DNA from: Marinomonas sargassi
GTDB lineage: Bacteria > Pseudomonadota > Gammaproteobacteria > Pseudomonadales > Marinomonadaceae
NCBI RefSeq assembly: GCF_025716875.1
Contig: NZ_JAOVZB010000003.1
Location: 1-64,000, forward strand
DNA: 64,000 nucleotides
Reading direction: 5' to 3'
The position numbers and the translations under genes are program-made. Positions within the stretch are counted from its first letter, which is position 1. Each line of letters starts with the position of its first letter. This document shows, piece by piece, positions 21,893 to 22,878 of the stretch. The notes below the pieces were generated by a model. It saw only the letters and a program-made list of their open reading frames with translations. It did no database searches and was not told where the DNA came from.

Positions 21893-21921
21893 ATAGTATT
21901 GGAAATAAAAACGATTATCAA
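21893..21921 (-). promoter_or_regulatory. sigma70 promoter with embedded Fur-like box for the imelysin operon
   Basis: On the minus strand TTGATA (21921-21916) and TACTAT (21898-21893) are separated by exactly 17 bases. The 19 bases at 21901-21919 match the Fur consensus GATAATGATAATCATTATC at 13 positions, with the ATTATC half complete. The box fills the -35/-10 spacer, so bound Fur would block RNA polymerase. Iron-repressed expression would fit the imelysin operon downstream. Confidence 0.6.
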
Positions 21922-21952
21922 CAGCTCGATGGTCTGAATTACACTATCTTTG

Positions 21953-22537
21953 TTACTTTTTACACTGGTATTGGAATGTGTTGCCTGCGGTTGTTTCTAG
22001 GTCATATTCACAAGCTTTGCTTCTTAGTTGATCTTGCCCCTCCCAAGAGATGCTCATTGTTGTTGGTGACTTGTGCTTATAACTAGGGATAAAGCGATAG
22101 GCCGCGATTACATCAATGCTGCTGTTTGGCCCAAGCTCTACCGTTTGACCAATTAAGCGCTGGCGAGTTTCTTTGTTATAGAGAGTGTAATCTGTTGTGT
22201 ATTCTTGGTCTCCATTTTCATGTGAGAAGTTTAACCAAATTTTTCTATAAGTCTGCGTTTCTGTTGTAGGGTTTTTAAAGCGCAGTTTAGTGTAAATAAT
22301 TTGCGATCTAGATAAGCTTGACTGAGCGCTTTGTCCTACTTTGACATAATCTGACTTACTTTCTTGCCACGGCATCTTGGCGCCAAACGAAGCATCTACG
22401 ATATCGATACTTTGTTTAGAAAAGTGAGTCTCGGCATAAGCAAGAAGGTCTTTGGCAGGTGCATATATGGTTAAAGGCAATATGCAGAGAATCATTATCT
22501 TGTGGAATTTACGTAATGGTGATTTTAGCTTAATCAT
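21953..22537 (-). CDS. secreted protein of unknown function, behind two overlapping LexA-type boxes
   Basis: This 194-residue protein has a basic N-terminus and a hydrophobic stretch (MILCILPLTIYAPA), consistent with a signal peptide or a single anchor. The mature region looks beta-rich, with two Cys near the C-terminus (KACEYD and YQCKK) that may form a disulphide. I recognise no family. AAGGA precedes the ATG at good spacing. Two overlapping CTGT-N8-ACAG boxes lie 19-56 bases upstream of the start, so expression is probably induced by DNA damage. The next minus-strand gene has its own promoter. Confidence 0.75.
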   Translation of the reverse strand: MIKLKSPLRKFHKIMILCILPLTIYAPAKDLLAYAETHFSKQSIDIVDASFGAKMPWQESKSDYVKVGQSAQSSLSRSQIIYTKLRFKNPTTETQTYRKIWLNFSHENGDQEYTTDYTLYNKETRQRLIGQTVELGPNSSIDVIAAYRFIPSYKHKSPTTMSISWEGQDQLRSKACEYDLETTAGNTFQYQCKK

Positions 22538-22555
22538 TTGTATATCCTTTATAGA

Positions 22556-22593
22556 TACTGTTTGTTTATACAGTACTGTATATAAAAACAGTA
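22556..22593 (-). promoter_or_regulatory. two overlapping LexA (SOS) boxes
   Basis: 22556-22575 reads TACTGT-TTGTTTAT-ACAGTA and 22574-22593 reads TACTGT-ATATAAAA-ACAGTA. Both fit CTGT-N8-ACAG exactly and agree with the E. coli 20-base consensus at 17 and 18 positions. They overlap by two bases. They lie 19 bases upstream of the secreted-protein gene on the minus strand and about 290 bases from the plus-strand gene at 22879. The rest of 22594-22878 is very AT-rich with nothing I can name. A TetR-type operator is a possible alternative. Confidence 0.65.
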
Positions 22594-22878
22594 TTTGTGT
22601 GTAGTCCTTTTTTAAAAAAAATATGATTTATTTTTCTTTAACTCTTGATTTTCACTTGATTTAAATTTTTTGATTAAAAAATTAAATAATGTTTGATTTT
22701 ATTTATCGCATTGAAAAATATGGGGAAAATTGTGATTCCCACAGCCTTTTTCACGGAATGTGTGGACAAAGTTTAGAAACTTGTTTTTGTTAAGGTATTG
22801 CCTAATATGTATTCCTTTTGATGGATTTAATGTTCTGACGAACTATAATGCACCCTCAAAAATAGAGAGGTGTAGCTT

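Follow-up and report, generated by a model that had tools for sequence, protein, structure and literature searches.

To our knowledge, the SOS inhibitors of cell division published so far, SulA apart, cross the membrane once and have an outer part. Division arrest after DNA damage in bacteria that lack SulA is known from few cases, mostly in Gram-positives and Caulobacter, and the Gram-positive SOS division inhibitors are usually encoded next to lexA. SidA of Caulobacter, a small membrane protein of 29 aa, has no folded periplasmic domain, in which it differs from the protein described below. It is an SOS-induced inner-membrane division inhibitor of a Gram-negative bacterium and is not a SulA homologue (PMC6851548, PMC13396833). 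SosA of Staphylococcus aureus has been aligned across one genus, and the residues that directly follow its membrane span are both conserved and required for inhibition (PMC6851548). In YneA, the transmembrane segment binds FtsW (PMC13396833).

The gene considered here encodes a 194-aa protein of Marinomonas sargassi and lies in a stretch of 64,000 nucleotides (hereafter the window) on contig C6 of a 3.14-Mb genome. Its product resembles SosA in its LexA-type SOS control, probable single N-terminal membrane segment and probable extracytoplasmic C-terminus, all predicted here from sequence, and in the strong conservation directly after the membrane segment that has been described for SosA (PMC6851548). 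SosA differs in its length (77 aa), its position beside lexA, its lack of a beta-sandwich and its Gram-positive host, and no sequence relation between the two is known. YneA (Bacillus) and ChiZ (Mycobacterium) are SOS-induced bitopic proteins with an extracytoplasmic domain, as proposed for the 194-aa protein, but their outer domain is a wall-binding LysM domain, and no LysM was found in the 194-aa protein. Its absence excludes only this subset of inhibitors, since SosA and DivS also lack LysM (PMC6851548). Finally, the gene would share with sulA of E. coli the tight LexA repression and the proposed biological role, whereas SulA is a cytoplasmic FtsZ inhibitor of unrelated sequence.

The layout of the operator, two overlapping LexA boxes, is already known. 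Specifically, the cea8 (colicin E8) promoter carries overlapping LexA targets (PMC4482635), and Salmonella recN has three boxes, at 8, 26 and 48 bp from its ATG, with 18 bp between the first and the second, the same offset as at the 194-aa gene (PMC8072944). However, cea8 drives a plasmid toxin gene and the recN promoter a DNA-repair gene, and the 194-aa gene looks like neither. A literature search found no overlapping double LexA operator on a genus-core chromosomal gene for a membrane protein, nor any paper on the SOS response of Marinomonas. The locus offers a clear natural case of this operator being kept genus-wide on a chromosomal gene that is neither toxin- nor repair-like.

The double LexA box and the predicted SOS regulon of M. 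sargassi

The features of the locus are as follows.

21953..22537, minus strand: 194-aa gene (open reading frame, 47 orthologues, two AlphaFold models, conservation profile)
within 22540..22551, minus strand: ribosome-binding site AAAGGA, just 5' of the ATG (direct sequence reading)
22556..22575, no strand assigned: proximal LexA box TACTGTTTGTTTATACAGTA, 17/20 to consensus (3 mismatches)
22567..22582, no strand assigned: palindromic core common to both boxes, TATACAGTACTGTATA, 16 bases, a perfect palindrome
22574..22593, no strand assigned: distal LexA box TACTGTATATAAAAACAGTA, 18/20 to consensus (2 mismatches)

The two boxes share the two bases 22574-22575, which places their centres 18 bp apart. 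The initial annotation had described this pair, matching the consensus at 17 and 18 of 20 positions and sharing two bases, and both boxes are present where it placed them; its spacing of 19 bases to the gene is right to within one, as 18 bases separate the proximal 20-mer from the ATG start codon. A sigma-70 promoter scan returned no site for the 194-aa gene; by eye, a possible -35/-10 pair overlaps the boxes.

Searching by pattern with the 20-base LexA consensus TACTGTATATATATACAGTA and a threshold of at most 3 mismatches retrieves only these two boxes in the window, against none in 100 dinucleotide shuffles of it. Genome-wide, the same search finds only 8 sites and a reversed control pattern none. 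The looser pattern CTGT-N8-ACAG occurs twice in the window against 0.88 expected, which alone is not significant. Scored with a matrix derived from eight further SOS-type sites in the same genome, the two boxes take the top two places in the window (27.8 and 23.3 bits), followed by a site at 14.4 bits. The distal box is letter-for-letter the box found at recA and dinB of this genome, and a fully matching double box occurs in the genome at the 194-aa gene only.

The repressor itself is ordinary. The genome encodes one full two-domain LexA (DNA-binding domain, 98 bits) with its own box upstream, close to LexA proteins of solved structure (E ~1e-79); a second, partial match of 21 bits falls below the cut-off. 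Boxes of this kind also lie upstream of recA, dinB, yebG, ruvC, uvrA, one topoisomerase-family gene and one radical-SAM gene. Judged from these promoters, the consensus used fits M. sargassi; the boxes of recA, dinB and lexA are of the same type, and the differing consensus that the initial annotation had allowed for was not seen. Within this genome, the 194-aa gene is the only strong LexA target clearly outside DNA metabolism, two sites being set aside in this comparison: a probably chance site at C6:302672 and the unclassified radical-SAM gene.

Several other sites of the genome deserve mention in their own right. The radical-SAM gene has the sole perfect 20/20 LexA box of the genome (C4:586569-586588; L061:1001-1016, gene 1042 onward); the family match by itself points to no evident role for it in the SOS response. 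The topoisomerase-family gene, which by eye resembles topoisomerase III, carries a strong box about 12 bp before its start (C9:174586-174605; L068:1001-1016, gene 1029 onward). A degenerate overlapping arrangement, TATAAAGTACTGTATATTTCAACAG, with one half-site altered, is present in the ruvC promoter region (C6:403866-403890; L064, L129). A lipoprotein-like gene divergent from dinB (L067:1330-1983) is over 300 bp away from the LexA box of dinB and is probably outside its control.

Conservation of gene and operator

One copy of the 194-aa gene is present in 47 of the 48 Marinomonas genomes, at 43-76% protein identity in the search. The exception, G043, is a 77%-complete assembly in which the adjacent flavoprotein gene is missing as well (25% identity in the best match), which makes the absence of the gene there uninformative. 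All 47 orthologues, which span 41-75% protein identity and, being related, do not represent 47 independent events, keep the overlapping pair in an identical 18-bp register. Both boxes are perfect at CTGT/ACAG in 36 promoters and one outer half-site has decayed in the other 11, such that at least one perfect box is found in 47/47. A double-pattern search likewise gave a match at the 194-aa gene in every one of these genomes but G015, where the distal box is without its outer half. Its other matches are mostly G+C-rich with two mismatches and chance-like, and the AT-rich double box sits at the 194-aa gene.

Forty promoters could be laid out as a gap-free alignment. Among these, the ACAG-TA-CTGT core is invariant or near so (one A-to-G change) and the outer half-sites are nearly so, whereas the spacer and the flanks of the double box vary, giving 28 distinct 34-mers. 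At promoter columns -25 to -19, immediately upstream of the double box, a CTATACA-like stretch is also conserved in most orthologues; it corresponds to about 22593-22600 in the window, where it reads CACACA, and may represent a -35 element or what is left of a third half-site.

The conserved core raises the question whether a repressor other than LexA reads the operator through the 16-base palindrome, which is perfect, more conserved than the outer half-sites, and centred on ACAGT-[A/G]-CTGT in all 47 orthologous promoters. However, two LexA boxes that have TA in common produce such a palindrome automatically. Conservation extends to the outer half-sites (CTGT fully matching in 43/47, ACAG in 40/47), every promoter has at least one full perfect box, and recA and dinB carry the same 20-mer without the palindrome. 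The conserved outer half-sites and the shared 20-mer make a non-LexA repressor very unlikely.

A second alternative is that the boxes serve a neighbour and the 194-aa gene is a passenger. An HI0933-type flavoprotein gene is divergent and starts about 285 bp from the boxes, and on the other side an imelysin/di-haem oxidoreductase cluster usually follows, with no terminator found between the 194-aa gene and the imelysin gene. Against this, the boxes end 10-36 bp before the ATG of the 194-aa gene in 39 of 40 measured promoters, and they remain there both in loci that lack a directly divergent flavoprotein gene (L045, L059) and in loci whose imelysin gene is out of its usual place (L043, L044, L046, L047, L079). 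We give this arrangement, too, very little credence.

The available data strongly support, at the level of sequence, the 194-aa gene as a core SOS gene of Marinomonas under LexA control. The LexA/SOS control proposed in the initial annotation is made all but certain by the box identity with recA and dinB, the ordinary LexA and the boxes kept in register in 47/47 orthologues, and from these we infer LexA binding and induction by damage at the double box.

Outside the genus, the picture is different. A single-protein search of 94 genomes from 45 genera of the order matched no genus besides Marinomonas, and a profile search of 390 genomes from 142 genera gave convincing scores in Marinomonas alone, together with four weak partial matches elsewhere (E 0.005-0.06). 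No relatives were found in 50,697 phage records or 72,556 plasmid records.

Predicted architecture of the 194-aa protein

Searches of Pfam, NCBIfam, PHROGs and PADLOC returned nothing above cut-off for the 194-aa protein, in agreement with the earlier statement that it belongs to no recognisable family. Hints of OapA_N (E 0.086) and of DUF5067 (best 0.015; 9/47 members) were judged to be chance or fold-level. AlphaFold models of the window protein and of a second member, which shares about 49% identity with it, both show an unbroken N-terminal helix to residue 39 followed by a beta-sandwich (mean pLDDT 75 and 74; most core strands 81-90). In the window protein, the helix or signal anchor would span about residues 8-39, with a hydrophobic part at 14-28, and the beta-sandwich domain about residues 43-180. 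A profile search of solved-structure sequences yielded nothing convincing. Fold searches retrieved many Ig-like and beta-sandwich proteins (ApaG, PCuAC, TRAP, FixG-type, DUF4352) with Z up to 7.7; as these scores possibly reflect only a common arrangement, transfer of function from them was rejected. The modelled fold is a common one, without an attached function.

At the predicted membrane edge, Y25, P27, K29 and D30 form a motif, Y-x-P-x-K-D, that is invariant in the 47 members. Mean entropy is 0.3 bits over residues 25-30, compared with 2.4 bits in the n-region and 1.9 bits in the h-region. In the members sampled, basic residues precede the hydrophobic stretch and almost no acidic ones do, the charge pattern that an N-in signal anchor would be expected to show. 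Fast evolution is the norm for signal peptides. The likeliest cleavage site in the window protein is APA|KD, and a cleaved signal peptide is possible there; A28 is not conserved, and 21 of the 47 members carry V, T, I, L or M at the -1 position. The variable -1 residue and the invariant motif beside the membrane favour an uncleaved anchor. Cysteines 176 and 192 are also invariant, which fits an oxidised periplasmic domain. Based on hydropathy, the continuous predicted helix and the variable cleavage residue, the protein is probably held in the inner membrane by its N-terminus and exposes a domain to the periplasm.

The initial annotation had taken the product to be secreted and offered a stress-released envelope factor, a toxin or a bacteriocin-like protein as possibilities. 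An envelope factor is possible. A secreted or stress-released product is less likely than a membrane-anchored one, given a predicted helix that extends beyond the hydrophobic stretch without a break, a non-conserved A28 and an invariant motif on the membrane side. An exported toxin, bacteriocin or lysis factor that is released after SOS induction would have a precedent in the overlapping LexA targets documented at the colicin promoter cea8 (PMC4482635) and agrees with the predicted export of the protein. It is nonetheless unlikely, since this is a single-copy core gene with largely conserved neighbours, genus-wide rather than patchy, that has an anchor-like N-terminus, no relative in the phage or plasmid collections and no conserved immunity- or lysis-like partner gene beside it.

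A possible brake on cell division

The SulA profile (PF03846) matched neither the 194-aa protein nor anything in the 48 Marinomonas genomes, and SulA was detected in 18 of the 45 genera searched. In a genus without SulA, the 194-aa protein is a good candidate for a damage-induced block of division. This complementarity is weak evidence, since many other genera of the order have neither detectable SulA nor the 194-aa protein. The presumed tight double repression suggests that leaky expression is costly. Taken together, the absence of SulA, the parallels to SosA and YneA, a target outside DNA metabolism and the tight repression make a brake on division or septal wall synthesis the best single guess.

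In the proposed model, two LexA dimers would sit side by side on the overlapping operators and cover the promoter, keeping the gene almost fully off. DNA damage would lead to RecA-triggered cleavage of LexA and thereby switch the gene on. The product, an inner-membrane protein with an N-terminal helix anchor and a periplasmic beta-sandwich domain, could then act as a late brake on cell division in place of the missing SulA. Specifically, the Y-x-P-x-K-D motif may dock on a membrane partner of septal wall synthesis (of the FtsW/FtsI/FtsN type), and the periplasmic domain may block this septal partner, as has been proposed for YneA, SosA and SidA. Taken as a whole, this explanation of the gene as an SOS brake that is kept tightly repressed and acts on division or on the synthesis of the septal wall is tentative, and we rate it somewhat below an even chance. 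The further step, that Marinomonas has a genus-wide SOS checkpoint protein of a new type, a membrane-anchored beta-sandwich that replaces SulA and stops division from the periplasmic side, is slightly more doubtful still. Counting against the division reading, the 194-aa gene is not adjacent to lexA, its product is longer than SosA, and neither homology to known division inhibitors nor a LysM domain was found. The locus nevertheless provides one specific, testable gene in a SulA-less marine gammaproteobacterial genus, with a defined motif to mutate.

The main rival is an SOS-induced factor for envelope protection or repair, an anchored periplasmic protein that would keep the envelope, the wall or a membrane complex stable under DNA damage, or under the oxidative stress that comes with it, while division continues. 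The periplasmic-type beta-sandwich with its two invariant cysteines speaks for it, as do the copper-chaperone (PCuAC) and FixG-type domains among the fold neighbours and the imelysin/di-haem oxidoreductase cluster that usually lies downstream. However, the likeness to PCuAC is at the level of the fold only (5-8% identity), and with one invariant histidine and, apart from the start, no invariant methionine, the sequences give no indication of a copper site. The imelysin cluster, moreover, is not adjacent in several relatives that keep the boxes, and tight double repression better suits a costly product than a housekeeping protector. This envelope role is possible, though we would not expect it to be the answer; the division brake remains our preferred, if tentative, reading.

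As to the downstream genes themselves, the minus-strand segment 16922-21832 encodes, in order, an imelysin, a di-haem oxidoreductase, a second imelysin and a DUF1513 protein, and the same order is seen in 13 of 13 long Marinomonas loci. A Fur-box-like stretch, recognised by eye, lies at about 21903-21922, ahead of the first imelysin gene, and the cluster looks like an iron-regulated unit apart from the SOS gene.
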